NCBI GenBank assembly: GCA_947497945.1
Contig: CANMIP010000002.1
Location: 124,001 to 188,000, forward strand
DNA from: an uncultured Tropicimonas sp.
Lineage (GTDB): Bacteria; Pseudomonadota; Alphaproteobacteria; Rhodobacterales; Rhodobacteraceae
Reading direction: 5' to 3'
DNA: 64,000 nucleotides
The notes under the pieces were generated by a model. The model worked only from the letters and a program-made list of their open reading frames with translations, ran no database searches and was not told the DNA's origin. A program made the position numbers and the translations under genes. Position 1 is the stretch's first letter, and each line of letters begins with the position of its first letter. Of the stretch, positions 11,232-50,362 are shown piece after piece.

Positions 11232-11267
11232 GCCAGCCCCTGCCCGCCCGATGGCGCAGGGGCCGGC
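11232..11267 (+). terminator. Possible hairpin downstream of soxG
   Basis: CCCCTGC at 11237-11243 pairs with GCAGGGG at 11256-11262, extended by GCC/GGC outside. It lies 50 bases after the soxG stop. No T-run follows, so it may be a Rho-assisted or mRNA 3' end structure. The rest of the gap to 11525 is C-rich and shows no gene. Confidence 0.4.
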
Positions 11268-11525
11268 GCGACACCTGATACGCCCCCCTGCCCCCAGGTC
11301 GGCCACACCCGATCCGGCGAACGCCGCCCCACATTCCGCGCCCCTCGCCCGCTGCCCCACCATCGCCGGAACCACCCGGCCCACCTCCCCAAGGCCCACA
11401 CGCGCGCCTCCCCGGCCGCAGACGGCCAAGAACGACCCGGCCCCACCGATCCCTCCAAATCCGCCACGGCTCTCTGGACATTTCCGCCGACACATGGTGC
11501 GACAGGGCCGAAAGGAAGCCCGCCC

Positions 11526-12152
11526 ATGACCCCGCAGGACGTTGAACAGCTCTTCACCCGCTCCGATGACAGCTATCTCTTTGCCCGCTGGGAACGGCCC
11601 ATCGTCCCCATCGTCTTCGGCGTCGACGATGCCACCCTGTCCACCGTCAAGGGCGCCTGCGAGGCCATCGTCACGCTGGCCGGCCACAAGATGGCCGAAA
11701 CCGACACCGAGATGGGCGCCAACCTGATGGTCTTCTTCTTCCGCCAGTGGGAGGAACTGCTCGAGGTCCCGGATCTCGACAAGCTCGTGCCCGAACTCGC
11801 CCCCCTGGTGGAGCGCCTCGCAAGATCCGGCGCCAACCAATACCGCGCCTTCCGCTTCGAGACGGACGGCGCCATCCGCGCCGCCTTCGTCTTCCTGCGC
11901 ATGGATGACGCCCTCGCCGCCGAGCCCGCCGAAGACCTCGCCCTCGGCCAGATGGCGCAATCGATCCTGCTCTGGTCCGACCGCGCCTTCACCACCCGCT
12001 CGCCACTCGCCCGCACGCCCGAAGGCCATATCGTGCTGCACCCGGAAATCAGCAACGTGATCCGCGCCGCCTATGATCCCACAATGCCCGCCACCGCCAC
12101 CGACCCAAGCCACGCGCTGCGCCTCGCCGCCCGGCTCGGGCGCACCGCCTGA
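11526..12152 (+). CDS. Conserved hypothetical protein
   Basis: A 208-residue protein with an ATG preceded by GAAAGGAAG. It has no signal peptide or membrane segment. The sequence has a mixed alpha/beta look with segments such as YLFARWERPIVPIVFGVDD and MVFFFRQWEELLEVPDLD. I believe similar proteins occur in Rhodobacteraceae but know no function. The next gene starts 9 bases downstream on the same strand, so the pair is likely co-transcribed. Confidence 0.75.
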   Translation: MTPQDVEQLFTRSDDSYLFARWERPIVPIVFGVDDATLSTVKGACEAIVTLAGHKMAETDTEMGANLMVFFFRQWEELLEVPDLDKLVPELAPLVERLARSGANQYRAFRFETDGAIRAAFVFLRMDDALAAEPAEDLALGQMAQSILLWSDRAFTTRSPLARTPEGHIVLHPEISNVIRAAYDPTMPATATDPSHALRLAARLGRTA

Positions 12153-25802: not shown

Positions 25803-27139
25803 CCGACACGAAGCAATTCAGGGTCCTGGTCATTGACGATGACAAGGCAATGCGCCAGTCGCTCGTGGAACTTCTGGAGGTGGCCGGCTGGCAGTCCGTC
25901 GCGATCTCGCGGGCAACTGCCGCCATTGACCGTATGGCCGATTTCCAGCCCGACGTCATCCTGTCCGACGTGCGAATGCCGGGAATGTCCGGTCTCGACC
26001 TGCTGGCCAGCCTGAACAAGAACACTGCAGCTCCGCTCGTTCTGATCTCCGCCCATGGCGACATTCCCATGGCGGTAAAGGCTATCCAGGATGGCGCCTA
26101 TAGTTTTGTAGAAAAACCCTATGAGCCACGCAGGCTCCTGACAATTCTAAGGCATGCGGCCGAGCAGCACCGGATGCGGCAGGTCAATACGCGCTTGAAG
26201 GCGCGCCTGTACAAGCTTTCCGGTCTCGATCGCGTACTGCTGGGGCAGACAGAGCAAGTTGTTCACCTACGTCAGGACATACTGGATCTGGCCGATACGG
26301 GTATCACGGTCTTGATCGAGGGCGAAACGGGCACTGGCAAGGAACTGGTTGCCCGCGCGCTGCACGATCTGGGCACAGATCCAGGGGCTCCTTTTCTGGC
26401 CTTGAACTGCGCTGCGCTGTCAGCCGAAACATTTGAGGCCGAGATGTTCGGTCTCGCGGGCGGCCCTGACGGAAGGCTCCTTGCCGCCTCGGGAGGCACG
26501 CTGTTTCTCGACGAAATCTGCTCCTGCCCGATCGCAGTGCAAGCCAAATTGCTGCGGGTGCTCGAGGACAAGCAGATATTTCCGGTGAATGCGCAATTGC
26601 CGGTACCAGTGGACTTTCGGGTCATTTCTGCGACGAATGAAAACTTGGAACTGGCCATGCAGGAAAACCGCATGCGGCAGGATCTTCTGTTCCGGCTCAA
26701 TACCATGATGCTGACGCTGCCAACCCTCAGGGAAAGGCGCGACGATCTGGTGCTTCTGGCCACGCAGTTCCTCGAAGAGTTCGCGCGTATCTACGAAGTG
26801 GCCGTCCCGGACATCAATCAGGATGATCTGGCCGCTTTGCTCGCGCATGACTGGCCTGGAAACGTTAGGGAACTGCGAGGCGTCTGCGAGCGCAGGGTCC
26901 TGTCTGCCCGTCGTGGAGGTGGAACGATGACTCAGGCGATACGGGCCGATCAGCATCTGGACAATGTTCCCGACACCTTGCGCGAGGCAGTGGCCGCCTT
27001 TGAGCGTGAATTGATCGGGAAGGCGATCACGGCGCATGAAGGCCGCATGGAGGCTGCCGCCGAGGCCTTGGGAATCGGACGTCGAACATTGAATGAGAAG
27101 ATCGTCAAACTCGGGCTCGACAAGGACGCATTGCTTTAG
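25799..27139 (+). CDS. DctD-like AAA+ response regulator lacking the sigma-54 contact loop
   Basis: A 446-residue NtrC-family regulator. The receiver domain has the phosphoacceptor in ILSDVRMPG (D57). The AAA+ domain has Walker A GETGTGKE (about 174-181) and Walker B GGTLFLDEI, and FRLN near the arginine finger. The C-terminus has a Fis-type helix-turn-helix (EALGIGRRTLNEKI). Where sigma-54 activators carry GAFTGA, this protein reads MFGLAGGPDGRLLAASGG, so the loop is absent. Activation of sigma-70 promoters or repression is therefore likely. It pairs with the kinase and lies upstream of the TRAP transporter. Confidence 0.88.
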   Translation: MTDTKQFRVLVIDDDKAMRQSLVELLEVAGWQSVAISRATAAIDRMADFQPDVILSDVRMPGMSGLDLLASLNKNTAAPLVLISAHGDIPMAVKAIQDGAYSFVEKPYEPRRLLTILRHAAEQHRMRQVNTRLKARLYKLSGLDRVLLGQTEQVVHLRQDILDLADTGITVLIEGETGTGKELVARALHDLGTDPGAPFLALNCAALSAETFEAEMFGLAGGPDGRLLAASGGTLFLDEICSCPIAVQAKLLRVLEDKQIFPVNAQLPVPVDFRVISATNENLELAMQENRMRQDLLFRLNTMMLTLPTLRERRDDLVLLATQFLEEFARIYEVAVPDINQDDLAALLAHDWPGNVRELRGVCERRVLSARRGGGTMTQAIRADQHLDNVPDTLREAVAAFERELIGKAITAHEGRMEAAAEALGIGRRTLNEKIVKLGLDKDALL

Positions 27140-27150
27140 CGCCGGCTACT

Positions 27151-27166
27151 CTGCGGATATCCGCAG
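27151..27166. promoter_or_regulatory. 16-bp perfect palindrome upstream of dctP
   Basis: CTGCGGAT joins ATCCGCAG without a gap, 12 bases after the response-regulator stop and 100 bases before the TRAP binding-protein start. Its position suits an upstream activator or operator site for the adjacent DctD-like regulator. It could also be a short hairpin closing the regulator mRNA. I see no -24/-12 sigma-54 promoter between it and the gene. Confidence 0.45.
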
Positions 27167-27266
27167 GGCAGATCGAATACAGGGCGCATTTTCCCTCATA
27201 GTCCGGACAATCGGCTTCCTGAATACTTGCGGGATCACGATCCGCTTGCTTCTGGGAGGAACCTAC

Positions 27267-28277
27267 ATGCGCAAGTATCTGAACCGGGTGGCCATCGCCG
27301 CCCTGTCTATCACCTTTGCATCCGAAGCCTTGGCCACCGAGTGGAATGTTTCGCTCTGGGGCAAACGACGCGCTTTCACCGAACATGTCGAGAAGCTCGC
27401 CGAACTGGTCTCCGAGAAGACCAATGGCGAATTCACCCTGAACATCAGCTATGGGGGCCTGTCGAAGAACAGGGAGAACCTCGACGGAATCTCTATCGGT
27501 GCCTTCGAGATGGCCCAGTTCTGCGCCGGCTATCACCGGGACAAGAACCCCTCGATCACCGTTCTGGAACTGCCTTTCCTGGGGGTGGCTTCACTGGAGC
27601 AGGAAATCGCCCTGTCGATGGCAGTCTATCAGCATCCGGCGGTGCAGAAGGACCTTGCCCGCTGGGATGCGACGCTGCTGATGCCCTCGCCTCTGCCGCA
27701 ATACAACCTTGTGGGCGTCGGTGACGCGCCACGGACGCTTGCCGATTTTGCAGGATTGAGCGTGCGCGCCACCGGAGGTATCGGCCAGGCTATGGCAACC
27801 ATTGGTGGCGTCCCGACCTCGATGTCGGCCTCGGAGGTGCGTCAGGCCATGGACAGCGGGATCGTAAAGGCCGTCGCCTTCGCGCCGCATGCGCATATGT
27901 CCTTTGGCACTGTCGAAAACGGGACGTGGTGGACCACGAACCTCAACCCGGGAACCGTCAACTGTCCGGTCGTTGTCAACACGCCGGCTCTGGAAGACCT
28001 GTCGGACGAACACCGGGATGCGTTGCTGGGGTCGATCGAAGAGGCTCTGGATCACTACGTGACCCACTACGAGTCCAAGACCATGGAAGCCTGGGGCCCG
28101 ACCCTGGAAAAGCGCGGCATCGAAAGTGTTACGTTCCCCGATGCGGAAATCGATGCCTTCAAGGATGCTGCCGCTGCTCCGGCCGCCGCGGCCTGGATCG
28201 AGGAGAACACCGCCCGCAAACTGCCGGCGCAGGAACTCTACGACCTCGTGACCGGCATGATCGCCAACGGAAGCTGA
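27267..28277 (+). CDS. TRAP transporter solute-binding protein (DctP family)
   Basis: A 336-residue periplasmic receptor. The signal peptide MRKYLNRVAIAALSITFASE ends around ALAT. The mature protein has the DctP fold with WGKRRAFTEHVEKLAELVSE at the front, LSVRATGGIGQAM in the ligand region with the arginine that usually binds the carboxylate, and the SEVRQAMDSGIVKAV helix. GGGAGGA precedes the ATG. The carboxylate-binding arginine suggests an organic acid ligand, which is not otherwise identifiable. Confidence 0.92.
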   Translation: MRKYLNRVAIAALSITFASEALATEWNVSLWGKRRAFTEHVEKLAELVSEKTNGEFTLNISYGGLSKNRENLDGISIGAFEMAQFCAGYHRDKNPSITVLELPFLGVASLEQEIALSMAVYQHPAVQKDLARWDATLLMPSPLPQYNLVGVGDAPRTLADFAGLSVRATGGIGQAMATIGGVPTSMSASEVRQAMDSGIVKAVAFAPHAHMSFGTVENGTWWTTNLNPGTVNCPVVVNTPALEDLSDEHRDALLGSIEEALDHYVTHYESKTMEAWGPTLEKRGIESVTFPDAEIDAFKDAAAAPAAAAWIEENTARKLPAQELYDLVTGMIANGS

Positions 28278-28285
28278 GCCTTCTG

Positions 28286-28316
28286 CCCTGCGCCGTTTCG
28301 CCCTGAAGGCGCAGGG
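28286..28316 (+). promoter_or_regulatory. Intercistronic stem-loop between dctP and dctQ
   Basis: CCCTGCGCC (28286-28294) pairs perfectly with GGCGCAGGG (28308-28316) across a 13-base loop, directly after the binding-protein stop. Such structures in transporter operons commonly stabilise the receptor mRNA or attenuate downstream transcription. No T-run follows. Confidence 0.55.
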
Positions 28317-28348
28317 CCCCCGTCATCAAAATATTGTGGAGAGTCGTC

Positions 28349-28981
28349 TTGGCAGGATCTACCCTCGTGCTGACCGATGACAGCCTTCTCAGTCGGATCG
28401 ACCAGCGCCTCTACAAGCTGGAAGGGTATCTGGCGCTACTGAGCGGCTTTGCGGTCTTTTCCCTCATGTTGCTTGCGGTCTTCTCCGTCGGAGGCCGCAA
28501 TCTGGCCAACCATCCGCTGCCCGGCTACGTCGACTGGATCGAGCAGGCCATGCCGTTGATTGCCTTCATGGGCATCTCGTTCACACAGCGCGATGGCGGA
28601 CATATCCGCATGGACATGCTGGTGGGCGCATTGCGGGGGCGGGCGCTCTATCTGGCCGAACTGGTCACCACCCTGATTATCCTTGCGCTCATGCTGCTGC
28701 TGGTCTGGGGAAGCTGGGCGCATTTCGACCGCAGTTTCGATCCTGGCGCACCTATGTGGAGCTCGGACAGTTCCATGGATATCGCTTTGCCGCTCTGGCC
28801 TGCAAAGCTGCTGGCACCTGTCGCGTTCAGCGTGCTCTGCCTGCGTCTCGTCCTGCAGGTCTGGGCCTATGGCCGGGCCCTCTTTGCCGGAGAAGCCCAG
28901 CCCGTAGCTGTGCCACTGATCGCCGATGCCGCCACACAGGCTGCCATGGAAGCCGAGCATGTCTCGGGCCACGACAACTGA
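28349..28981 (+). CDS. TRAP transporter small membrane subunit (DctQ family)
   Basis: A 210-residue protein with four hydrophobic helices and the DctQ patterns YVDWIEQAMPLIAFMGISFT and RDGGHIRMDML. TTG at 28349 is preferred as start because GGAGAG lies 6 bases upstream; TTG at 28334 is possible but would precede the ribosome site. DctQ associates with DctM in the inner membrane. The stop lies 10 bases before dctM. Confidence 0.9.
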   Translation: MAGSTLVLTDDSLLSRIDQRLYKLEGYLALLSGFAVFSLMLLAVFSVGGRNLANHPLPGYVDWIEQAMPLIAFMGISFTQRDGGHIRMDMLVGALRGRALYLAELVTTLIILALMLLLVWGSWAHFDRSFDPGAPMWSSDSSMDIALPLWPAKLLAPVAFSVLCLRLVLQVWAYGRALFAGEAQPVAVPLIADAATQAAMEAEHVSGHDN

Positions 28982-28991
28982 GATAGATGAT

Positions 28992-30392
28992 ATGGAACCG
29001 ATTGATATTGGACTGATCGTTTCGGGTGGGATGCTCGTTCTGGTCGTACTGGGCATGCGGGTTGCCTTTGCCGCCGCGGCCGCGGGCATGGTGGGCCTTG
29101 TCTGGATTTTCTGGGCGAAGTTCGGATATGACCCCGAGCGTTTCGGCAAGGCCGTGACCGTTGCTGTCAAGACCGCCGGTCAGGTCCCCCATTCCAAGAT
29201 CTCGAGCCAGGCGCTCTCCCTGATCCCCACCTTCATCCTGATCGGCTATCTGGCCTATTATGCAGGGCTGACCAAAGCCCTGTTCGAAGCCGCCAAACGC
29301 TGGCTGGCCTGGGTTCCCGGTGGTCTGGCCGTTTCGACAGTTTTTGCCACCGCCGGGTTTGCCGCAGTGTCCGGCGCCTCGGTGGCGACGTCCGCAGTGT
29401 TTGCGCGCATCGCCATCCCGGAGATGCTGAAGATCGGCTACAACAAGCAATTCGCAGCCGGCGTCGTGGCAGCCGGGGGCACCCTGGCCTCGCTTATCCC
29501 GCCCTCGGCAATCCTGGTGATCTATGCCATCATCGTTGAACAGGACGTGGGAAAGCTCCTGCTGGCCGGCTTCATCCCCGGCGCCTTTTCGGCTGTCATC
29601 TACGGGTTGCTGATCATAGGCATGGCCAAGGTCATCAAGGGTTTCGGACCGCCGGTCACCGGTTTCACCTGGAAAGAGCGCCTTGTGGCGCTGCCGCCGG
29701 CATTGCCCATCGTTTTCGTCGTCGTGACCATCATCTTCTTTGTCTACAACCCCTTTGGTGGAGACGCGTGGGGCACGCCGACGGAAGGTGGCGCAATCGG
29801 AGCCTTCGTGGTGTTCCTGATGGCCCTCTATCAGGGGATGCGTTGGTCTGAACTCAAGGATGCACTTCTTGAGACCGCCAAACTGAGTGTGATGATCTTC
29901 ACCATCATCTGGGGTGTGCTGATCTATGTGCGTTTTCTGGGTTTTGCGGAGTTGCCAAGCGCGTTCTCCGACTGGATCACCTCGCTCTCGATGTCGCCAA
30001 TGCTGATCCTGATCTGTATCCTGCTTGCCTATGCCGTGTTGGGGATGTTCATGGACGCCATCGGGATGCTTCTGCTGACTCTGCCGGTTGTCTATCCTGC
30101 CGTGATGGCCCTGAATGGCGGCGAAGCTGTAACTGCCGCCGATAGCGCATTCGGCATGTCGGGGCCCATGTGCGCAATCTGGTTCGGCATCCTGGTCGTG
30201 AAGATGGCCGAGTTCTGCCTGATCACGCCCCCCATCGGCCTGAACTGCTTCGTTGTGGCCGGTGTCCGGGACGATCTGACTGTCCAGGACGTGTTCAAAG
30301 GCGTGACCCCCTTCTTCATCGCCGATGCCGTGACCATCGCTCTGCTGGTGGCATTCCCCGCCATTGTACTCTGGTTGCCGGGACAAGTCTGA
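28992..30392 (+). CDS. TRAP transporter large membrane subunit (DctM family)
   Basis: A 466-residue permease, somewhat longer than the usual 425-440. It has about twelve membrane helices and the family segments SGASVATSAVFARIAIPEM, GGTLASLIPPSAILVIYAII and ITPPIGLNCFVVAGV. It couples sodium-driven uptake to the receptor. The extra length lies around residues 240-280 (a loop with YNPFGGDAWGTPTEGG). It is the last gene of the regulator-TRAP block; IS debris follows. Confidence 0.92.
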   Translation: MEPIDIGLIVSGGMLVLVVLGMRVAFAAAAAGMVGLVWIFWAKFGYDPERFGKAVTVAVKTAGQVPHSKISSQALSLIPTFILIGYLAYYAGLTKALFEAAKRWLAWVPGGLAVSTVFATAGFAAVSGASVATSAVFARIAIPEMLKIGYNKQFAAGVVAAGGTLASLIPPSAILVIYAIIVEQDVGKLLLAGFIPGAFSAVIYGLLIIGMAKVIKGFGPPVTGFTWKERLVALPPALPIVFVVVTIIFFVYNPFGGDAWGTPTEGGAIGAFVVFLMALYQGMRWSELKDALLETAKLSVMIFTIIWGVLIYVRFLGFAELPSAFSDWITSLSMSPMLILICILLAYAVLGMFMDAIGMLLLTLPVVYPAVMALNGGEAVTAADSAFGMSGPMCAIWFGILVVKMAEFCLITPPIGLNCFVVAGVRDDLTVQDVFKGVTPFFIADAVTIALLVAFPAIVLWLPGQV

Positions 30393-31066: not shown

Positions 31067-32353
31067 TCAATTGCGTGTCACAACTGTCCGTGCTCGCGTT
31101 TCGGCTTCACGAATCCGACCCCATTTTGCATAGGCGTTCGTGATGTCTTCCGGACTCAGGTCTGGCAAATCCAGGATGGACCGATCATGGCGTGCCGGCA
31201 TTTCCTCCCACTTCTCGGGAAGATATCCTTTCTGACGGCATAGCTCGAACAACTGTGTTCCCGGGAAAGGATAGAAGACGAAATACCCGAAATCGAGTGG
31301 TCGCAGGTCGCTGTGCAGTTCCATGGTTGCGACAAGGTCGGCCGGCTTTTCTCCCGGAATGCCCAGCATGTAGTTGGCCGTAGCCATGATACCGGCCTCC
31401 CGTGTCCGTCGAAAGACATCGATCAACCGGTCGTTCGATACCGGCCGCTTCATCACGTCGCGTCGTATCCGTTCCGATCCACTTTCGACGCCGTAGACCA
31501 CGTGTTTGCACCCTGCCTGGGCAAGCGCGTCTATCAGTTTCGGGTTCATGGTCTCGGCCCTGGCATGGATCGAGAAACCCACGCCTGCCTTCCGCGGAAA
31601 GACCTCGCAAAACTCGAACACCCAGGGGTGATGGATCGTGAAAGTGTCATCGAGGAATATGACGTAGTGAAGGGGGCCTGCATTTGCGATCGCCGTCAAC
31701 TCGGCCATGACATTTTCAACAGAGCGACGCCGCCCGTAAGAACCGATGCCTTCATAGAGTTGGTCGTACATACGCGCCGCGCAATAGGTGCAGGGAAAGG
31801 GGCATCCGCGTTGGGTCGCCATGTGCACGACGCCGGGATGCTCGTCAAGCATGTCGCGGGCCATGAAAGGAATGGAGTCGATCTCCGGGATCGGCGGAGC
31901 AAGACCGGGATGCGTACCGCCATCGACCCAGATGTTTCGCAAACTTGCATCGCGGATTTGTCCTCCGGAGGACAGATGAGCCAACAGCGCCACGAACGGG
32001 GCTTCGCCCTCGCCGAGGCACACCGCATCGATCCCGGGTGCCTCCAGGACGCGCTCGGGCGAGAATGTGGCATGCAGACCGCCGGCAATCATAGGCCAGT
32101 CTCCAGCCTCCCGCAGGAGGCCGGCAATCTCACGCCCGCGCAACCATTGCCGGCTTGTCAGCGACATTCCGAGAAGATCGGGCTCCCTTTTGCTGACCAT
32201 CCGGACGACATGTTCGTTCGTCCAGTCACTCCCAATCCTCAACAGTTCCGCGCTGTGGCCGGCTTCTCGCGCAACCCCGGCCAGAAAAGCGGGGCCGAGG
32301 GAGCAAACAGCCCACTCCGCCTCGGTGTCGATTTCCAGAAAGACGATATGCAT
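31067..32353 (-). CDS. B12-binding-domain radical SAM protein
   Basis: A 428-residue enzyme. Residues 1-140 look like a cobalamin-binding Rossmann domain (GPAFLAGVAREAGHSAELL, IAGGLHATFSPE). The radical SAM centre is GCPFPCTYCAA with cysteines at 184, 188 and 191 binding a 4Fe-4S cluster, followed by the SAM-binding VIFLDDTFT and VVYGVESGSERI. Such enzymes methylate unactivated carbons or rearrange peptides and cofactors. It is the last gene of a minus-strand series with a methyltransferase, a PAAR protein and an unknown protein, 78 bases after the methyltransferase. The substrate is unknown. Confidence 0.88.
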   Translation of the reverse strand: MHIVFLEIDTEAEWAVCSLGPAFLAGVAREAGHSAELLRIGSDWTNEHVVRMVSKREPDLLGMSLTSRQWLRGREIAGLLREAGDWPMIAGGLHATFSPERVLEAPGIDAVCLGEGEAPFVALLAHLSSGGQIRDASLRNIWVDGGTHPGLAPPIPEIDSIPFMARDMLDEHPGVVHMATQRGCPFPCTYCAARMYDQLYEGIGSYGRRRSVENVMAELTAIANAGPLHYVIFLDDTFTIHHPWVFEFCEVFPRKAGVGFSIHARAETMNPKLIDALAQAGCKHVVYGVESGSERIRRDVMKRPVSNDRLIDVFRRTREAGIMATANYMLGIPGEKPADLVATMELHSDLRPLDFGYFVFYPFPGTQLFELCRQKGYLPEKWEEMPARHDRSILDLPDLSPEDITNAYAKWGRIREAETRARTVVTRN

Positions 32354-32431
32354 ATCTTTCGCTCCTTCGACATTGTGCCACGCGTGTCGTGACGCCGTCC
32401 ACTTGCCCGAACTCGTCCTGATGTCGCCGTC

Positions 32432-33499
32432 TTAACTGAACGGGCGTTCCCGGGATCCTCCGTCCCGTCGGCAGGCCAGAAGGTGCAGGCTGTACTCCAT
32501 GACCGCGCGGGCATGCATCCTGAGGCGCCAGGGGGCGTCCAACACCTCCCCGACGATAGGCAGGCCAGCCTGGAGCAATGTCTGCTTCAGGATAGGCTCG
32601 CTGGCGCCGGCTGTCGGGCCGCGCTGCGAATGACCTCCGAGCCACAAGCTGATTTCCGTCGCATTGGGAGCCCAGTCATAGGGAGTCGACAGGATAGCCC
32701 CGCCCCCCGGCGCCAGGGTCCGCGCCATTTCAGACAAGACGGCCGTCGGGTTCGCCACGCAATCAACGAGGTTGATCGCGGCCGCCAAAGAAAACGCGTC
32801 CTCCTTGAATGGCAGCATCATCGCGTCGATGGCCCAGAAATCCGGCGACGCCCCTGCGTCCTCGGGCAGGTCTATGCGCACCCGGTCATAAACGACACCG
32901 ACACGGCGCAGGTCGATCTCGATGTGGCCCTCCAGAGCCAGCGCCTGACCGAGGCGCATCATCGGGATGTTCAGATCCGCCACGACAACAGGCGCGAGCC
33001 CGCGCCGTGACAATTCCCACCCGCCGCGTCCGACCGATCCCCCAAGGTCAATCGCGGGTCCATCGGGCATTTCCCCGAGGATATCAAAGCCCCTGGACAG
33101 GGTTTCGACCACATTTGCCGGGCGCGGCTCCGGCGCCCAATCTGCGAAATGGTCGCCAGCATAGAGGCTCAAATGCTGCCGCGTAAGGTCATACTCCCCA
33201 CCCGCTCCGAGGGCATCGGCAAGAACACCAGCGATCGGGGCCGGAAGCATGTCGCGGCGCAGGAGTTGCGACTGGGCGTTTGCAAGTGCAGTTGCCGGAT
33301 CGGCGACGATGATCGGAATGCCATCGATCACCGGGAACTCGAGCCAGCAGGACGGGTTGGAACAATGGAGCGTGCCGTGCCACAGGTGATCCGCACGTGT
33401 CTCCAGCCTGTCGGCGACTACCAGCGGCGACCGCTGCTCGGCCCCGTGCAGACAGCGCGGGCAGACCGGCGCCAATGCCTCGAAAACAGTCTCACGCAT
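32432..33499 (-). CDS. Class I SAM methyltransferase with N-terminal Zn-ribbon (Trm112-like)
   Basis: A 355-residue protein. The first 65 residues hold CPRC and CSNPSC pairs around a FPVIDGIPIIV strand, like the Trm112/zinc-ribbon module seen at the front of some methyltransferases. The catalytic domain has AIDLGGSVGRGGWELSRRG as the SAM loop and DAMMLPFKEDAFSLAAAINL as motif II. The late domain is around PYDWAPNATEISLWLGG. Its ATG lies 4 bases after the PAAR stop, so the two are almost certainly co-translated. Substrate unknown; the neighbour suggests a protein or cofactor target, which is inference. Confidence 0.85.
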   Translation of the reverse strand: MRETVFEALAPVCPRCLHGAEQRSPLVVADRLETRADHLWHGTLHCSNPSCWLEFPVIDGIPIIVADPATALANAQSQLLRRDMLPAPIAGVLADALGAGGEYDLTRQHLSLYAGDHFADWAPEPRPANVVETLSRGFDILGEMPDGPAIDLGGSVGRGGWELSRRGLAPVVVADLNIPMMRLGQALALEGHIEIDLRRVGVVYDRVRIDLPEDAGASPDFWAIDAMMLPFKEDAFSLAAAINLVDCVANPTAVLSEMARTLAPGGGAILSTPYDWAPNATEISLWLGGHSQRGPTAGASEPILKQTLLQAGLPIVGEVLDAPWRLRMHARAVMEYSLHLLACRRDGGSRERPFS

Positions 33500-33503
33500 C
33501 TGG

Positions 33504-33890
33504 TCAGCCGCCGATCATGACGGTTGGGCAGCAGGGCGGAATGATCTGGCCGACAGGGGAGGGAATGGGCGCGACACAGCTCGGATGCGATGACATATCC
33601 CCCAGCCGCGCAGCTGGCAGTTTCTGGATGAGCACCGTGGCGGATCCCTTGACGATCAGCCCTGGACCGGCCGGGACGCAGGGGATCAGCGTGCAAATCT
33701 TTGTCATGTCCGTCACCCGCGCCGCGGGCATGCCGCCGATCAGGGTGGTTACCGCGCAGGGTGGCATGATCGGCAATGGAAGCGCCGGATGTGGAACCGG
33801 TGTTGGTGTGGGCGCTGGCGGGTGGATCGGCGCGTGGCAATGAGGCGCGGTCTGCAAGACCATATCCATCATTCGTGCGGCAGGTGGCAT
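33504..33890 (-). CDS. PAAR domain protein
   Basis: A 128-residue protein with the PAAR repeat pattern: MPPAARMMDM at the front, TLIGGMPAARVTDMTKIC in the middle, LPAARLGDMSSHPSC later and CCPTVMIGG at the end. PAAR proteins cap the VgrG/spike of type VI secretion systems and of other contractile injection machines, binding a metal at the tip. No VgrG, sheath, tube or effector gene is present in the window, so this is an orphan tip protein. It sits between a 91-residue unknown protein and a methyltransferase. The proline/histidine-rich insert near residues 17-45 is unusual. Confidence 0.88.
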   Translation of the reverse strand: MPPAARMMDMVLQTAPHCHAPIHPPAPTPTPVPHPALPLPIMPPCAVTTLIGGMPAARVTDMTKICTLIPCVPAGPGLIVKGSATVLIQKLPAARLGDMSSHPSCVAPIPSPVGQIIPPCCPTVMIGG

Positions 33891-33927
33891 GGGTGTCCGG
33901 TCCTCCGTACTCGCGCCCGGTTGGCAT

Positions 33928-34203
33928 TCAGGGTTTCAGCAGGAAATCGTCCGGCGGCAGTGTCGGGTCGAAACTAACGACAATACGATCTCCGATCACC
34001 ATAATGGGCACTTTGAGAGCGGTAGGCAACTCCTCGCCCGTCGCCAGCTTTCCGCCAGCCACGAAGTCCCGACCCTTGGCGTGGCCGCTCCCCAGCACCT
34101 CCAGCCAGAGATCGAAACCGCATAGTGCGACCTGAACCGGGTTCGGATGGGCCCGAATCGCGGAAGCTAGTTCCGCCATGCTCGAAGAGAGTTCCTTGGC
34201 CAC
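33928..34203 (-). CDS. Small unknown protein upstream of the PAAR gene
   Basis: A 91-residue acidic-to-neutral protein starting at GTG (34203), preceded by GAGG. It reads as an N-terminal helix (SSMAELASAIRAH), a beta-rich body (VQVALCGFDLWLEVLG, VPIMVIGDRIVVSFDP) and an acidic tail ending DDFLLKP. No signal peptide or membrane segment is present, and I do not recognise the family. It is 37 bases upstream of the PAAR gene on the same strand, so an adaptor, chaperone or cargo role for the PAAR protein is possible but unproven. Confidence 0.65.
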   Translation of the reverse strand: MAKELSSSMAELASAIRAHPNPVQVALCGFDLWLEVLGSGHAKGRDFVAGGKLATGEELPTALKVPIMVIGDRIVVSFDPTLPPDDFLLKP

Positions 34204-35024: not shown

Positions 35025-35658
35025 TCAGATCTCGATCTTCTCGGCGATGCTCAAGGCGTCTTCAAGCTCTACGCCAAGATACCTAACGGTGCTGTCGACC
35101 TTGGAGTGCCCAAGAAGAAGCTGGACCGCCCGAAGGTTGCCGGTTTTGCGGTAGATCTGCGCGGCCTTGGTACGTCGCAGTGAATGTGTGCCGTATCCGC
35201 TCGGATCAAGGCCAATCGCCGAAACCCAATCCCGAACGAGACGCGCGTATTGGCGCGTCGACACATGGGGCCCATGTTGAAAGCGGCTCGGGAACAAGTA
35301 GGCGCCCCCATGCATCTCCGGAGCAAATAGCCACTTTGAGATCGAATCTCGCGTGCCTTCAGAGACTTCGAACTGCACCGGTCTCTGTGTCTTACTCTGA
35401 ATCACCGAGGCTCGGTCGTGGACGCTGGTGCCTGAAGCGAGATCGGCAACCTTCAAGCGGACCAAATCGCAGCCGCGCAACTTGCTGTCGATGGCGAGGT
35501 TGAACAACACCAGATCCCGAAGGTTGCCCGCAAGTTCGAGCCTGGCGCGAAGTGCCCAGACCTGTTTGGGAAGCAATGGGCGGTTTTGACCGACTGGCCG
35601 TCCCTTGTTTTCAGGGCCGGCGCTTCGGTTTGACAACGGGCAGTTGGATTTTGGACAT
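35025..35658 (-). pseudogene. Short tyrosine-recombinase integrase with a frameshift near its start
   Basis: The main frame encodes LLPKQVWALRARLELAGNL, FNLAIDSKLRGCDLVRLKVA with the first catalytic arginine, YGTHSLRRTKAAQIY (His-x-x-Arg), LLLGHSKVDSTVRYLGVELE and the terminal tyrosine. This is the compact integrase of about 205 residues found on alphaproteobacterial mobile DNA. The family-like start MSKIQLPVVKPKRRP begins at ATG 35658 in another frame and hits TGA at about 35611, where one extra T seems to have been inserted. Alternative starts upstream of the break would give a foreign N-terminus. Confidence 0.7.
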
Positions 35659-36112
35659 GAGCTTTCTCCGTCCATCCCTCCCGCTCCAGACGCCAACACC
35701 ACGTTGACGGGCTGATTCCAACCAATGGATTGAATGGCTGATTGCCGGAGTCGTCATCGGTCGACCGCGCTGCACCGCCGCAAGGCGGCTCAGAGCCCAA
35801 TCTACCCGTTCGCAACCAACACGGCGTCCGACTGGGCGGACACTACCGGTCGCTCGGGGTGTTCGGTCCCATGATAGAGCGGAAGCATTTTCTGGCCTCG
35901 CAAGGCGCTGAGGAAATTACAAAAACCATCAAACGGTGATGAAACACGGATGGAGAACGTTACGGCGAAAGAACTCCGAGCCGACGCGCGACATCAGAAA
36001 TAGCTTCCCATTTGTTGATGCCCCGCGGACAATGCGGGCCTGGGGTGACTTATTGTCCCCGGAAGATGGGAGAAAGTCGCCTCAAGAAAAAAGTCACCAA
36101 TGGGAGGACACC
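35659..36112. other. Leader and promoter region of the PhoX-type phosphatase
   Basis: About 450 bases without a gene of their own. The frame of phoX stays open upstream from 35936, but that part has no signal-peptide character. GGTGACTT (36044-36051) and AAGTCACC (36091-36098) form an inverted repeat in the phoX leader. I see no clear pair of Pho-box direct repeats. Confidence 0.4.
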
Positions 36113-37990
36113 ATGAAGGACCATGATCTGACAATGGACGAGTGGGACGAGGTCAAGAACCCTCGTCCTGAGACTTCGGAATTCGACCTCGTTGTGGAAG
36201 AGGCCATCTCACGCAGGGGCTTCCTGGGCGGTGTCCTTGCCTTCGGCTCCGGTGCCGCGGTGATGAGCACCGGCACACTTCTTTCTTCCACGTCTGCCAG
36301 GGCACAGGCCGCGAGCCGCTTCGCCTTCAAGCCGATACCCATCGCGACGGATGCCACCGTTCATGTGCCCGAGGGGTATAGCTGGTCGACCGTCGTCCGC
36401 TGGGGCGATCCGCTGCGCTCCGGTGCAGCCGCGTTTGATCCCGCCAACGGGCACGATGCCGCCACCGCGGAGCATGTCTTCGGCGAGAACACCGACGGGA
36501 TGTGGCTCTATTCCATCGACGGTCGCGAGGTGATCGCCGTCAACAGCGAATATGCCAATCGCAAGACCAACCTTCCGAACTCCGAAGGTGTGCCCCAAAG
36601 CGCCGATGACGTGCTGATGCTGCAGCGCATCCAGGGCGTTACCATCATGGAGGTTGCTCCGAACGAGAGTGGCCAATACGAGGTTGTCGTCGACTCGCCC
36701 TTCAATCGCCGCATCGATCACAACACACCGATGACGTTCTCGGGTCCGGCAGCGGGTTCGGACCTGCTGAAAACGGATGCCGACCCCGAAGGCATGACCC
36801 CCTTGGGCACGATGAACAATTGCGGTTCCGGTCCGACGCCGTGGGGGACGTATCTGACCTGCGAGGAGAACTTCAACGGCTATTTCGGCTCGACCGATGC
36901 GGAAGCGGAGCTACCTGAAGACTACAAGCGCTACGGCATCGGCCATGATGGCTGGGGCTACGATTATCACAAGTTCGACGAACGCTTCGATGTCTCCAAG
37001 AACCCGGCCGAACCGCGCCGGCAGGGCTGGGTCACCGAGATCGATCCCTCGGATCCGAACTCGACCCCGATCAAGCGGACCGGGCTCGGGCGCTTCAAGC
37101 ACGAGAACGCCGCCTGCACGCTGGCGCCGGACGGGCGCGTGGTTGTCTACATGGGCGACGACGAGCGCGGAGAGTATCTCTACAAGTTCGTCTCGAACGG
37201 GGTCTACTCGCCGGGGGCCGATGGCGGTGCACTGCTCGATGACGGGACCCTGTTTGTTGCGAAGTTCAATTGGGACGGCACGGGAGAATGGCTGCCGCTG
37301 ACACCGGAAACGACCGGCATGGAAGCGGTAGAGATCCTGGTCTTCACCCGCATGGCGGCCTCGGCGGCCGGCGGCACCACGATGGATCGTCCCGAATGGG
37401 TGCAAGTGAACCCCGTCGCGGCCGAAGGCTATGCGTCTCTCACGAACAACAAGAACCGCGGTGTGAAGCCGAATGCGGGCGGCGACGACACCTCGATCAA
37501 CGGGCCCAACCCGCGCGAGGCCAACAAGTATGGCCAGATCGTGCGTTGGTACCCGGCGAATGACGATCACGGAACATCGTCATTCCGCTGGGACCTGTTC
37601 GTGATGGCTGGCAACCCGGTTGTTGGTGAAGGCGCCTACAAGGGGTCCTCGAACGTCAACGAAGGAAACATGTTCAACTCGCCGGACGGGATGATGTTCG
37701 ATTCGACCGGGATCGTCTGGATCCAGACGGACGGGGACGACTCGAACGAGGGCGACTTCGAAGGCCAGGGTAACAACCAGATGTTGGCCGGTGATCCGGT
37801 CACGGGCGAAATCCAGCGGTTCCTGACCGGCCCGAACGGGTCGGAGGTTACAGGGCTTTGCTGGTCGACGGACAGAAAGACGATGTTCGTTGGAATTCAG
37901 CATCCTGGCGGCTCCTTCCCGGACGGAGAAGGTTTGCCGCGTTCCTCTATCGTCGCCGTTTGGCGTGACGACGGTGCGTTGGTCGGCTGA
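36113..37990 (+). CDS. phoX: PhoX-family (DUF839) Tat-exported phosphatase
   Basis: A 625-residue protein. ATG 36113 is chosen because GGGAGGA lies 4 bases upstream and the protein then begins with a Tat signal: SRRGFLGG near residues 33-40, a hydrophobic stretch and a cleavage region around ARAQAA. The mature part has PhoX/DUF839 features such as GTMNNCGSGPTPWGTYLTCE and GRFKHENAACTLAPDGRVV, and a TNNKNRGVKPNAGGDDTSIN loop. PhoX enzymes are calcium/iron alkaline phosphatases that release phosphate from organic esters in the periplasm. Confidence 0.88.
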   Translation: MKDHDLTMDEWDEVKNPRPETSEFDLVVEEAISRRGFLGGVLAFGSGAAVMSTGTLLSSTSARAQAASRFAFKPIPIATDATVHVPEGYSWSTVVRWGDPLRSGAAAFDPANGHDAATAEHVFGENTDGMWLYSIDGREVIAVNSEYANRKTNLPNSEGVPQSADDVLMLQRIQGVTIMEVAPNESGQYEVVVDSPFNRRIDHNTPMTFSGPAAGSDLLKTDADPEGMTPLGTMNNCGSGPTPWGTYLTCEENFNGYFGSTDAEAELPEDYKRYGIGHDGWGYDYHKFDERFDVSKNPAEPRRQGWVTEIDPSDPNSTPIKRTGLGRFKHENAACTLAPDGRVVVYMGDDERGEYLYKFVSNGVYSPGADGGALLDDGTLFVAKFNWDGTGEWLPLTPETTGMEAVEILVFTRMAASAAGGTTMDRPEWVQVNPVAAEGYASLTNNKNRGVKPNAGGDDTSINGPNPREANKYGQIVRWYPANDDHGTSSFRWDLFVMAGNPVVGEGAYKGSSNVNEGNMFNSPDGMMFDSTGIVWIQTDGDDSNEGDFEGQGNNQMLAGDPVTGEIQRFLTGPNGSEVTGLCWSTDRKTMFVGIQHPGGSFPDGEGLPRSSIVAVWRDDGALVG

Positions 37991-44666: not shown

Positions 44667-46999
<2,333 letters not shown>

Positions 47000-48013: not shown

Positions 48014-50362
48014 TCAGCGCTCGGTCAGTTTCAGCTCGATCCGACGATTCCTGGCCCGGGCGGCGTCACTGTCTTCGCGGGTGACAGGCTGGAATTCGCC
48101 AAACCCGTTCGCCGCCAGCCGATAGGGCGGGAAGCCCAGTTCGCGGGTCATGTGCCGAACCACGGACAGGGCGCGGGCCTGGCTCAGCTCCCAATTGTCT
48201 GCATAGGCCCCCTGCCCGGACAGAGGCTGGTCATCGGTATGACCATCGACCCGGATCACCCAGTCGATCTCCTCTGGGATCTCCTCCGATATCTCCGCGA
48301 GGATTCGGGCCACGCCGGCGATCTGCGCCCGACCCGCCTCGGAGATGTCGGCCGATGCCGGTTCGAACAGGACCTCGGACGAGAAGACGAAACGGTCGCC
48401 CTCGATCTGCACACCTTCGCGTCCGCCAAGGATCTCGCGCAGGCGGCCAAAGAACTCGGAGCGGTAATTCTTCAGGTCGCGCGCCTCCGCTTCCAGCCGC
48501 TTCTTTTCCTCTTCCAGTCGCAGGCGCTCGGCCTCCTCCAGCCGCGCCCGCTCGGCCTCCAGGTCCGCCCGCTGCGCCTCGAGGTCGGCCCGCGCCCTCT
48601 GCTCTGTGGTGAGCTGCGCCAGCGCCGTGTTGAGCCGCGAGCCCAGCGATCGGATCTCGACCTTGGTAACGGCATCGCGGGCCTCTGACGCGCTTAACAG
48701 CTCCTCCAGCGTCGAAAGCTGGCTGCGCAGCGAGGAGATATTCTCGTTGAGCAGCGCCATGCGGCGCTGGTCCTCGGCCGAAGCCGCCTCGCGCTGCGCC
48801 AATTCCGTCTCGGCAGCGGACAGCAGCGCCGCGCGCTGCTCGGCCTCGCTCAGCTGCTTCTCGGCATCCTGTTCGGCGGCAAGTTTCGCCGCCAGGGCGG
48901 CCGCAAGCTGGCGCCGGATGTCCTCGGAATTGCCGGTTGCCGCGCGCAGGCTCTCGTTTTCGGTCTCAAGCCGCGCCATCTCGCTCCGCAGATCCGCCAT
49001 CTCGCCCGAAAGGGTCTCGATCGTCCGCTCCGCTTGCGCCAGTTGCGCGGCCGCATCCCCGCCTTCGGCCAGGGCCGCATCGCGCTCCGACGTCAGAGCC
49101 GCGACCGCGACACGCTCGCGCTCCAACTGCCCCGACAGGGTTTCCACACGGGCCTGCGCCTCGGCCAGAGCCGTCAGCTGCACCGCATTTCCCGTCTCTG
49201 CCTCCGAGAGCGCCGCCGCCAGCGCTTCGCCCCGCGCGGTCTGTCCGGCGAGCGCATCCTGCAGACGGGCCACCTCTTCTCTCGCCTCGCCAAGCGCTGC
49301 CGCGCCCGCGCTCTGGCCCGACCGCGCATCTTCCAGCGCCGCCACCAGCCGCGCACGCTCCGCTTCGGCTTCGGCCAGCGCCTCGCGCATCCGGGTGGCC
49401 TCCGCCCGGGCATCGGCAAGTGCGGTCGCGCCGGCCTCCTTCGCCGCGGTCTCGCCGGCCAGCTCCTCTTCAAGCGCCAGCCGCGACAGCAGCGCAGCGG
49501 CAAGTTTCTCGTCCAGCGCCGCCTCTGCCGATTGCGCCGCCGCAAGCAGCGTCAGCGTCTCCTCCGCCTTGCGCCGCTGCGCTTCCAGCGCCAGGGTCAT
49601 CGCCGTCAGCTCGTCTTCGGCCCCCTTCAGCTTCTCCCGCAGAGCCTGCGCGGCGGCGACCTCGGCCAGCCGCGACGCCTCTTCTTCCGACAGGCGCTCC
49701 GCGAGGTCCTCGGCTTCGGCCAGCTTGTCGGCCAGGTCGGCATCGGCCTCGGCGTTCTGCACCTCGAGGTCGGCGATCAACGCCTCCAGCGCTTCGCGCT
49801 TCGCCGCCGCCAGCCGTGCCGCTTCCTGCTGCAGGTCGATCTCGCCGCGCGCCGAAGCAAGGGCTGTTTCCAACGCATTGCGCTCATTCTCCAGCGCGCC
49901 CTGCTCGCTCTCCAGCTCCGCGATATCGGCCCGCGCCGCGTCCCGCTCCAGCAGCAATGCCGCCACCTGTTCTTCGAAATTCGAGATTTTCCCGGCCGCA
50001 TCGGCCAGTGCCGTCTCCTGCTGGCCAACCTGCGTCGTCAGCGCCGCGATCAGGGCCGCCTGTTCGGACGCCTCGTCGCGCGCCGAGGACAGCGTCGCGT
50101 CGAGCACACCGACCTGCCGCTCCAGATCGGCAGACCGGCTCTCCTCCATGCCCAGGGCCTCGGCGAGTTGCAGGATCTCGGTCTGCAACAGGTCGAGCTC
50201 GCTTTCCTGGCCGGTGATGGTTTCGCGCAGCATGAATTGCACGATCATGAAGATCGACAGCACGAACATCAGCACCAGCAGCAGCGCCGTCATCGCGTCG
50301 ACAAATCCCGGCCAGATCGAAGCCGAGAAGCGATCACTCCCGCGTCGGCGCGCCAGCGACAT
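48014..50362 (-). CDS. MotB/ZorB-like OmpA-domain protein with a giant coiled coil
   Basis: A 782-residue inner-membrane protein. A basic start is followed by WPGFVDAMTALLLVLMFVLS, a single membrane helix with Asp22 in the position of the proton-carrying aspartate of MotB, ExbD and ZorB. Residues of about 55-640 are an almost unbroken Ala/Glu-rich coiled coil. The C-terminal OmpA-like peptidoglycan-binding domain has LFEPASADISEAGRAQI, VDGHTDDQPLSGQGAYADNW and ARNRRIELKL. It starts 3 bases after its MotA-like partner. The pair is widespread in Rhodobacteraceae with no settled function. It could form a 5:2-type ion-driven motor reaching far into the periplasm. Confidence 0.85.
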   Translation of the reverse strand: MSLARRRGSDRFSASIWPGFVDAMTALLLVLMFVLSIFMIVQFMLRETITGQESELDLLQTEILQLAEALGMEESRSADLERQVGVLDATLSSARDEASEQAALIAALTTQVGQQETALADAAGKISNFEEQVAALLLERDAARADIAELESEQGALENERNALETALASARGEIDLQQEAARLAAAKREALEALIADLEVQNAEADADLADKLAEAEDLAERLSEEEASRLAEVAAAQALREKLKGAEDELTAMTLALEAQRRKAEETLTLLAAAQSAEAALDEKLAAALLSRLALEEELAGETAAKEAGATALADARAEATRMREALAEAEAERARLVAALEDARSGQSAGAAALGEAREEVARLQDALAGQTARGEALAAALSEAETGNAVQLTALAEAQARVETLSGQLERERVAVAALTSERDAALAEGGDAAAQLAQAERTIETLSGEMADLRSEMARLETENESLRAATGNSEDIRRQLAAALAAKLAAEQDAEKQLSEAEQRAALLSAAETELAQREAASAEDQRRMALLNENISSLRSQLSTLEELLSASEARDAVTKVEIRSLGSRLNTALAQLTTEQRARADLEAQRADLEAERARLEEAERLRLEEEKKRLEAEARDLKNYRSEFFGRLREILGGREGVQIEGDRFVFSSEVLFEPASADISEAGRAQIAGVARILAEISEEIPEEIDWVIRVDGHTDDQPLSGQGAYADNWELSQARALSVVRHMTRELGFPPYRLAANGFGEFQPVTREDSDAARARNRRIELKLTER

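Follow-up and report, generated by a model that had tools for sequence, protein, structure and literature searches.

In the 64,000-nucleotide stretch of an uncultured Tropicimonas sp. genome analyzed here (contig CANMIP010000002.1; referred to below as the window, with all window coordinates counted from its first letter), four co-oriented genes on the minus strand form a small cassette. They encode, in this order, a 91-residue protein without an assigned family (U91, positions 33928 to 34203, with a GTG start), a 128-residue PAAR spike-tip protein (33504 to 33890) of a subtype carrying a His-Cys-His motif (HCH), a 355-residue methyltransferase with a zinc ribbon (32432 to 33499), and a 428-residue B12-binding radical S-adenosylmethionine (SAM) enzyme (31067 to 32353). 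The gaps between them are 37, 4, and 78 bases. An earlier reading of this DNA, the original prediction, had described the same arrangement, and its coordinates, common orientation, and gaps were confirmed, as were its PAAR, methyltransferase, and B12-radical SAM assignments by Pfam. It had also placed no VgrG, sheath, tube, or baseplate gene in the window, and none was matched there by the 25 marker proteins used, mostly from the type VI secretion system (T6SS), or elsewhere on the contig in the parts retrieved (1 to 124000 and 188001 to 368000). Outside the four genes, the markers matched in the window only a TssH-like protein (44697 to 46718, 37 to 41%) and a short TssL-like segment (48023 to 48256), which presumably represent a common Clp ATPase and an OmpA-like domain.

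The methyltransferase gene and the PAAR gene were found side by side in many other genomes. When named genomes were scanned once with a profile built from seven methyltransferase sequences, 61 loci were obtained, 48 of them close relatives (L035 to L082, E ≤ 1e-48) and 13 distant ones (L083 to L095, E of 9e-22 or weaker). A PAAR gene lay directly upstream and on the same strand at 48 of the 48 close loci, with a spacing, measured to the alignment start, from a 4-base overlap to a 55-base gap, and PAAR was matched at none of the 13 distant loci. The 48 loci are not independent (8 are from Azospirillum and 5 from Shinella), and many belong to metagenome bins; their labels include Alpha-, Gamma-, and Deltaproteobacteria, Planctomycetota, Verrucomicrobiota, Nitrospinota, and Acidobacteriota. 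Two further pairs were located on plasmids, one within a T6SS cluster of Aureimonas and one adjoining VgrG in Thiodictyon. Given this co-occurrence across genomes, the option that the enzymes are unrelated cargo genes on an island, which the original prediction had kept beside its own hypothesis, was not supported. Two of the taxonomic labels are doubtful. One locus (L079, WNWL01000003.1, genome G004) is labeled Oceanobacillus (Bacillota), while its genome was placed in the family of the window itself; either label or assembly is probably in error. Another (L039/L123, genome G535), in an Anaerolineae-labeled bin, is near-identical to the locus of an Alphaproteobacteria bin (L038; U91 95% identical) and probably represents a binning error.

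The same association was seen in genome samples. Among 385 genomes of the class, the window's own included, 4 had the methyltransferase, and the PAAR subtype was found in exactly these 4; since the PAAR profile was derived from PAARs adjoining the enzyme, the informative part is its absence from the other 381 genomes. The one additional PAAR match was far weaker and came without HCH and without the methyltransferase. In the phylum sample (398 genomes, searched with a 41-row PAAR profile), which overlaps the class sample in some genomes, the subtype was present in the window's own genome and one other, again together with the methyltransferase. Within the genus, the methyltransferase was found in the own genome and, except for one weak partial match, in none of the other 8.

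The two remaining genes were followed in 36 (radical SAM enzyme) and 35 (U91) genome handles; the 36 correspond to 33 distinct genomes with the pair after removal of duplicates (G296 = G534 and G421 = G546) and of the congener G007, which has no methyltransferase. Co-occurrence of the four families had been named as the check on the original idea, and the outcome was split: it held for PAAR and methyltransferase, whereas the radical SAM enzyme was present in 13 of the 33 genomes and U91 in 5. T6SS clusters of Azospirillum, Shinella, Aureimonas, and Methylobacterium likewise kept the methyltransferase beside PAAR but lacked the radical SAM enzyme and U91. Because the clusters of these four genera hold the pair without the other two genes, PAAR and methyltransferase form the core of the cassette, and, judged by gene content, this pair is a conserved T6SS module.

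Type VI secretion and extracellular injection systems had both been considered as the machinery behind the PAAR protein, and the neighborhoods pointed to the former. A T6SS core gene (TssB, TssC, TssE, TssK, TssL, TssM, VgrG, or Hcp) was present within the fetched stretch at 34 of the 48 loci, and the count rose to 39 with TssA, TssH, TssJ, or the N-terminal part of IcmF included. In one studied system, a PAAR tip is described as required for T6SS assembly and killing, with three metal ligands essential (PMC10715212). The Tropicimonas genome carries a T6SS on another contig, C9, with matches to TssA, TssB, TssC, TssH, TssK, TssL, TssM, VgrG, and FHA and with none to the Hcp or TssE marker. The congener G007 has the order VgrG-DUF-PAAR-FHA, which is also the order in Ruegeria (VgrG-hypothetical-PAAR-FHA), whereas the own genome has VgrG-DUF6931-FHA at the same junction, with 32 bases between the aligned flanks compared to 353 in G007. 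The DUF6931 protein between VgrG and FHA is encoded at positions 11254 to 11862 of the C9 stretch (L127, G000:C9). No PAAR match was obtained in C9 from 55001 to 135000, and a Pfam family search of the own genome recovered two PAARs, both on contig C2. Furthermore, the HCH PAAR was the sole PAAR family gene found in 10 of the 14 surveyed genomes with the methyltransferase. From the PAAR-less VgrG-FHA junction, the location of both PAARs on C2, and the frequent standing of the HCH PAAR as the only one, we consider it probable that the window PAAR serves as tip for the unlinked T6SS on C9. The description of this PAAR as an orphan is correct for the window but not for the genome, and the PAAR protein is an orphan by position only.

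The genes following the pair varied over the 48 loci. The next recognized downstream gene was FHA at 10 loci, TssH at 8, the radical SAM enzyme at 2, and TPR, TssC, TssB, and TssE at one each, with a contig end at 2. Genes adjoining PAAR or VgrG are often effectors, and the methyltransferase could itself be a T6SS effector that is delivered on its own PAAR tip to act inside target cells. A possible parallel is Tsb1 of Bradyrhizobium, a protein with a methyltransferase domain and a T6SS in common with the window enzyme, which is discussed as a possible effector (PMC10879055) and is likened here by its description only. However, the methyltransferase gene keeps its place with PAAR in loci of widely differing taxonomic labels and lies within T6SS core clusters, and the next recognized gene downstream differs from locus to locus. 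No constant immunity gene was seen, 22 of the 48 loci having no recognized gene within 700 bases, where the unrecognized ones were not checked. An effector role is distinctly unlikely on this evidence.

The PAAR protein scored 47.8 bits with Pfam PAAR_motif (PF05488, cut-off 27), and its predicted structure (predicted local distance difference test [pLDDT], 85.4) has the PAAR fold, with 4jiw as the best PDB match (E 5.2e-4, TM score 0.84 by target length). It is 66 to 75% identical to most PAARs adjoining the methyltransferase. The motif His17-Cys18-His19 (codons at 33834 to 33842, minus strand) occurred in every complete PAAR at the close-relative loci (47 of 47; the 48th, L039, ends at a contig edge), and the longer form HCHxPIH in 44 of 48. 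With the window sequence included, C66 and C105 were conserved in 49 of 49 sequences, C71 in 48, H102 in 47, and H34 in all 48 reaching that position. In a Pfam-based PAAR survey of 15 genomes, 14 with the methyltransferase and one congener without, HCH was present in 14 of 14 PAARs adjoining the methyltransferase and absent from 7 of 7 others, of which one was under the family cut-off and one is a frame with a stop codon. The motif was likewise missing from two PAARs outside the survey that are unaccompanied by the enzyme, one in G481 and one on a Ruegeria plasmid, giving 0 of 9 in total. This co-occurrence marks HCH as the putative methylation site. The zinc ligands at the tip of the enteroaggregative Escherichia coli (EAEC) PAAR are H14, C41, H46, and C74 (PMC10715212). 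HCH, C66/C71, and C105 follow the same order, and the spacing from C66 to C71 equals that from C41 to H46; from this agreement in order and spacing, as distinct from a computed superposition, we infer that HCH sits in the first apical PAAR loop. The least certain block of the PAAR model, residues 21 to 30, directly follows the motif.

The methyltransferase matched Pfam Methyltransf_11 with 28.7 bits (cut-off 21.2), and in a profile search of solved structures the best 3 of 49 matches were OvsM (6.7e-29), OvoA (2e-25), and OvoM (1.2e-22), whose deposited names are those of histidine-imidazole N-methyltransferases. The NCBIfam model ovoA_Cterm was matched at 1.1e-20 with 74.2 bits against a cut-off of 170, as by a relative and not a member. 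The enzyme has NLxD and WxGG stretches in common with OvoM, OvsM, and the C-terminal domain of OvoA, N-methyltransferases of 5-thio- or 5-selenohistidine, but differs from them by its extra N-terminal zinc ribbon and by adjoining PAAR instead of OvoA. The ribbon, already part of the original prediction, was borne out by Cys13, Cys16, Cys46, and Cys51, kept in 52 of 52 methyltransferases, and D246, W276, and W286 were invariant in all sequences reaching them. A protein histidine methyltransferase of eukaryotes, METTL9, is described as favoring HxH sites in which the middle residue is small and uncharged (PMC12269839); HCH would fit a preference of this type, the likeness to METTL9 being one of motif preference only.

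The known substrates of this methyltransferase family are, by their names, small molecules, and VgrG often lies within the same cluster. Both points would suit enzymes that act on another T6SS part, such as VgrG, or on a small molecule, with PAAR as a mere neighbor. Against this, PAAR and not VgrG precedes the methyltransferase in 48 of 48 loci, it is a specific PAAR subtype and not any PAAR that accompanies the enzyme, and the N-terminal sulfoxide-synthase part of OvoA was found at 0 of 55 loci, searched over the stretches around the pair. A substrate other than PAAR is unlikely. The result for OvoA also led us to reject a first step of histidine thiolation as in ovothiol synthesis. A gene of the SUMF1/EgtB type occurred near the pair in two Thiodictyon records only.

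The radical SAM enzyme scored 92.7 bits with Pfam Radical_SAM (cut-off 29.5) and 64.1 bits with B12-binding (cut-off 32.1). It has eight orthologues of 51 to 64% identity, and the three cysteines of its CxxxCxxC cluster motif (C184, C188, and C191) were invariant across the nine aligned sequences. The best solved match was AprD4 (4.6e-20), over the radical SAM half only, followed by 9ccb (6.3e-19) over residues 20 to 370. Entry 9CCB is the structure of MgmA (PMC11796369), which is the nearest solved relative across both domains. The MgmA model TIGR04014, for the glutamine C-methyltransferase of methyl-coenzyme M reductase (MCR), was matched with 93.2 bits, under its equivalog cut-off of 360, and no NCBIfam model was matched over its cut-off. 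With AprD4 and MgmA as the best solved matches and no family assigned by NCBIfam, C-methylation is the likely chemistry of this putative C-methyltransferase, other reactions being possible.

Orthologues of the radical SAM enzyme (≤ 1.5e-183) in the 13 genomes were clearly set apart from the next match of any kind (8.7e-89). The gene adjoined PAAR, U91, or the methyltransferase in 10 of the 13, in three arrangements (downstream, upstream on the same strand, and divergent), with one locus split over two contigs; in the other 3 it lay on another contig (two genomes) or at a distance of about 22 kb on the contig of the pair (one genome). Its lack in most genomes with the pair and its location away from the pair in these 3 would agree with a unit of PAAR and methyltransferase only, the radical SAM enzyme and U91 being unrelated neighbors in the window. 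On the other hand, the gene was adjacent in most of its genomes and in more than one arrangement, and only 2 of the 385 class genomes had it, both of them carrying the pair, while it was absent from the 381 without the pair. To account for its distribution, the methyltransferase tree requires a minimum of 6 changes, 2 of them forced by well-supported branches; the association has therefore either arisen repeatedly or been lost often. We consider a unit of the pair alone rather unlikely and regard the radical SAM enzyme as a recurring partner of PAAR and methyltransferase. As a marker of the enzyme within PAAR, Thr28 was tried and set aside; of the genomes with the radical SAM enzyme, 9 of 13 had this residue, against 1 of 19 lacking the enzyme (P = 0.0002 before any correction), and it is kept as a lead only, because many positions were tried and the tree gives 2 independent pairs on supported branches.

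U91 matched no Pfam, NCBIfam, or PHROGs family, as expected from its first description as a protein of no known family. Homologues 45 to 62% identical with a conserved C-terminal end were found in four other genomes, and U91 is therefore a real gene. It was present in 5 of the 35 genome handles searched for it, all five with the radical SAM enzyme; the naive chance figure for this overlap, 0.004, ignores the kinship of the five on the methyltransferase tree. Their methyltransferases form one tree group with weak support (95/53), and because they group together the restriction of U91 may reflect one event. U91 is a lineage-specific addition. The two best predicted structures reached pLDDT values of 87 and 86, the window model being the one with 87, and the other three 55 to 64; a fold search of the PDB gave no match better than E 0.5. 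In G004, a globin gene lies between U91 and PAAR on the opposite strand (L024, 488 to 907, minus strand; Pfam Globin 5.4e-17).

The original hypothesis that the enzymes modify the tip, the small protein, or a cargo is partly upheld, co-occurrence supporting that the enzymes belong with PAAR and possibly modify it. We propose that the cassette matures the T6SS spike tip by N-methylating and, in some lineages, also radically modifying a metal-binding PAAR protein, a reading to which we assign a probability of roughly 0.58. The HCH-subtype PAAR would cap the VgrG spike of the resident T6SS, whose genes lie on a separate contig in this genome, and the adjoining methyltransferase would N-methylate an imidazole in the invariant His-Cys-His of the first PAAR loop. 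Where present, the B12-radical SAM enzyme would add a carbon-bound methyl group to the same protein, with U91 as a possible accessory of this step, and the modifications might adjust or shield the metal site of the spike apex. Among these parts, PAAR is rather probably the substrate of the enzymes, and the odds that the modified site falls within HCH are about even. It is a tentative suggestion that the radical SAM enzyme C-methylates PAAR, and an effect of the modifications on the metal site is still more doubtful.

Several points weigh against this proposal, which as a whole rests on sequence. The solved relatives of the methyltransferase are named for free thio- or selenohistidine and not for protein substrates, and the enzyme stays under the ovoA_Cterm cut-off. 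By E value, the top solved match of the radical SAM enzyme, AprD4, is a dehydratase, though over half the length only, and its best curated families (ApyD, HpnJ, MgmA-type, and BchE) are far under their cut-offs and not all methylating. The enzyme is missing from 20 of the 33 genomes with the pair. In the E. coli PAAR, His14 of the first loop is described as replaceable without functional loss (PMC10715212). Finally, the PAAR profile was built from PAARs adjoining the enzyme, three of them from matching genomes, and in the class and phylum samples only part of the first-look candidates per genome was scored.

The closest parallel to the proposed chemistry is the maturation of MCR, which carries N-methylhistidine together with C-methylations by B12-radical SAM enzymes; MgmA is described as C-methylating a protein glutamine and Mmp10 as a further enzyme of this kind (PMC11796369). 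Like the MCR active site, the tip might be an enzyme-made metal apex with N-methylhistidine and lineage-dependent B12-radical C-methylation. We hold this likeness to be somewhat short of even odds and graded it lower because the best E-value match of the radical SAM enzyme is a dehydratase. MCR, moreover, is archaeal and enzymatic, whereas the presumed substrate here is a secretion spike, and the MgmA family cut-off was not reached. In comparison to known T6SS PAAR tips (c1882, VCA0105, and the EAEC PAAR), the window PAAR shares the fold and the T6SS context but has a longer first loop (HCHxPIHP...PHP) and is tied to a methyltransferase. Systems for ribosomally synthesized and posttranslationally modified peptides use a short leader-core precursor that is cleaved and exported; the substrate presumed here is a 128-residue PAAR protein that is folded in its model. 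A fragment of O-methyltransferase type in a T6SS cluster, Re87 of Rhizobium etli (PMC10215855), is comparable by its description only.

No description of PAAR paired with a radical SAM enzyme or a methyltransferase was found in the searches made of an openly licensed library. To our knowledge, no such modification has been reported for any secretion spike. The adjacency of a special PAAR to a methyltransferase, and sometimes to a B12 enzyme, in many unrelated bacteria suggests a chemical alteration of the tip ahead of its use. If so, the spike apex would be matured chemically like a metalloenzyme, through a tip subtype accompanied by a methyltransferase of its own and often by a B12-radical SAM enzyme. 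This would provide a candidate function for methyltransferase and radical SAM subfamilies that match no NCBIfam model over cut-off, and HCH would serve as a simple sequence mark for finding such systems.

The cassette is flanked by genes for a TRAP-type transporter (DctP and DctM) and a PhoX alkaline phosphatase (window positions 27093 to 30392 and 35936 to 37990), and a gene for a 225-residue tyrosine recombinase adjoins it (35025 to 35702, minus strand; Pfam Phage_integrase 2.9e-18). The adjoining recombinase and the absence of the methyltransferase from the 8 congeners hint at acquisition of the cassette by transfer. An empty insertion site in the congener G567 was considered and not retained; PhoX is common to both at 84% DNA identity, and the left flank was unmatched in its stretch. 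An origin from a phage or plasmid was considered and rejected. Viral contigs contained no relative of the HCH PAAR and one distant radical SAM match (25% identity), and U91 had no match among plasmids. PAAR was matched in 3 plasmid records, the third being the Ruegeria plasmid with VgrG-hypothetical-PAAR-FHA, without the methyltransferase and without HCH. The methyltransferase was matched in 19 plasmid records, in 2 of them over most of its length and adjoining PAAR, and the other 17 matches were taken for OvoA relatives.

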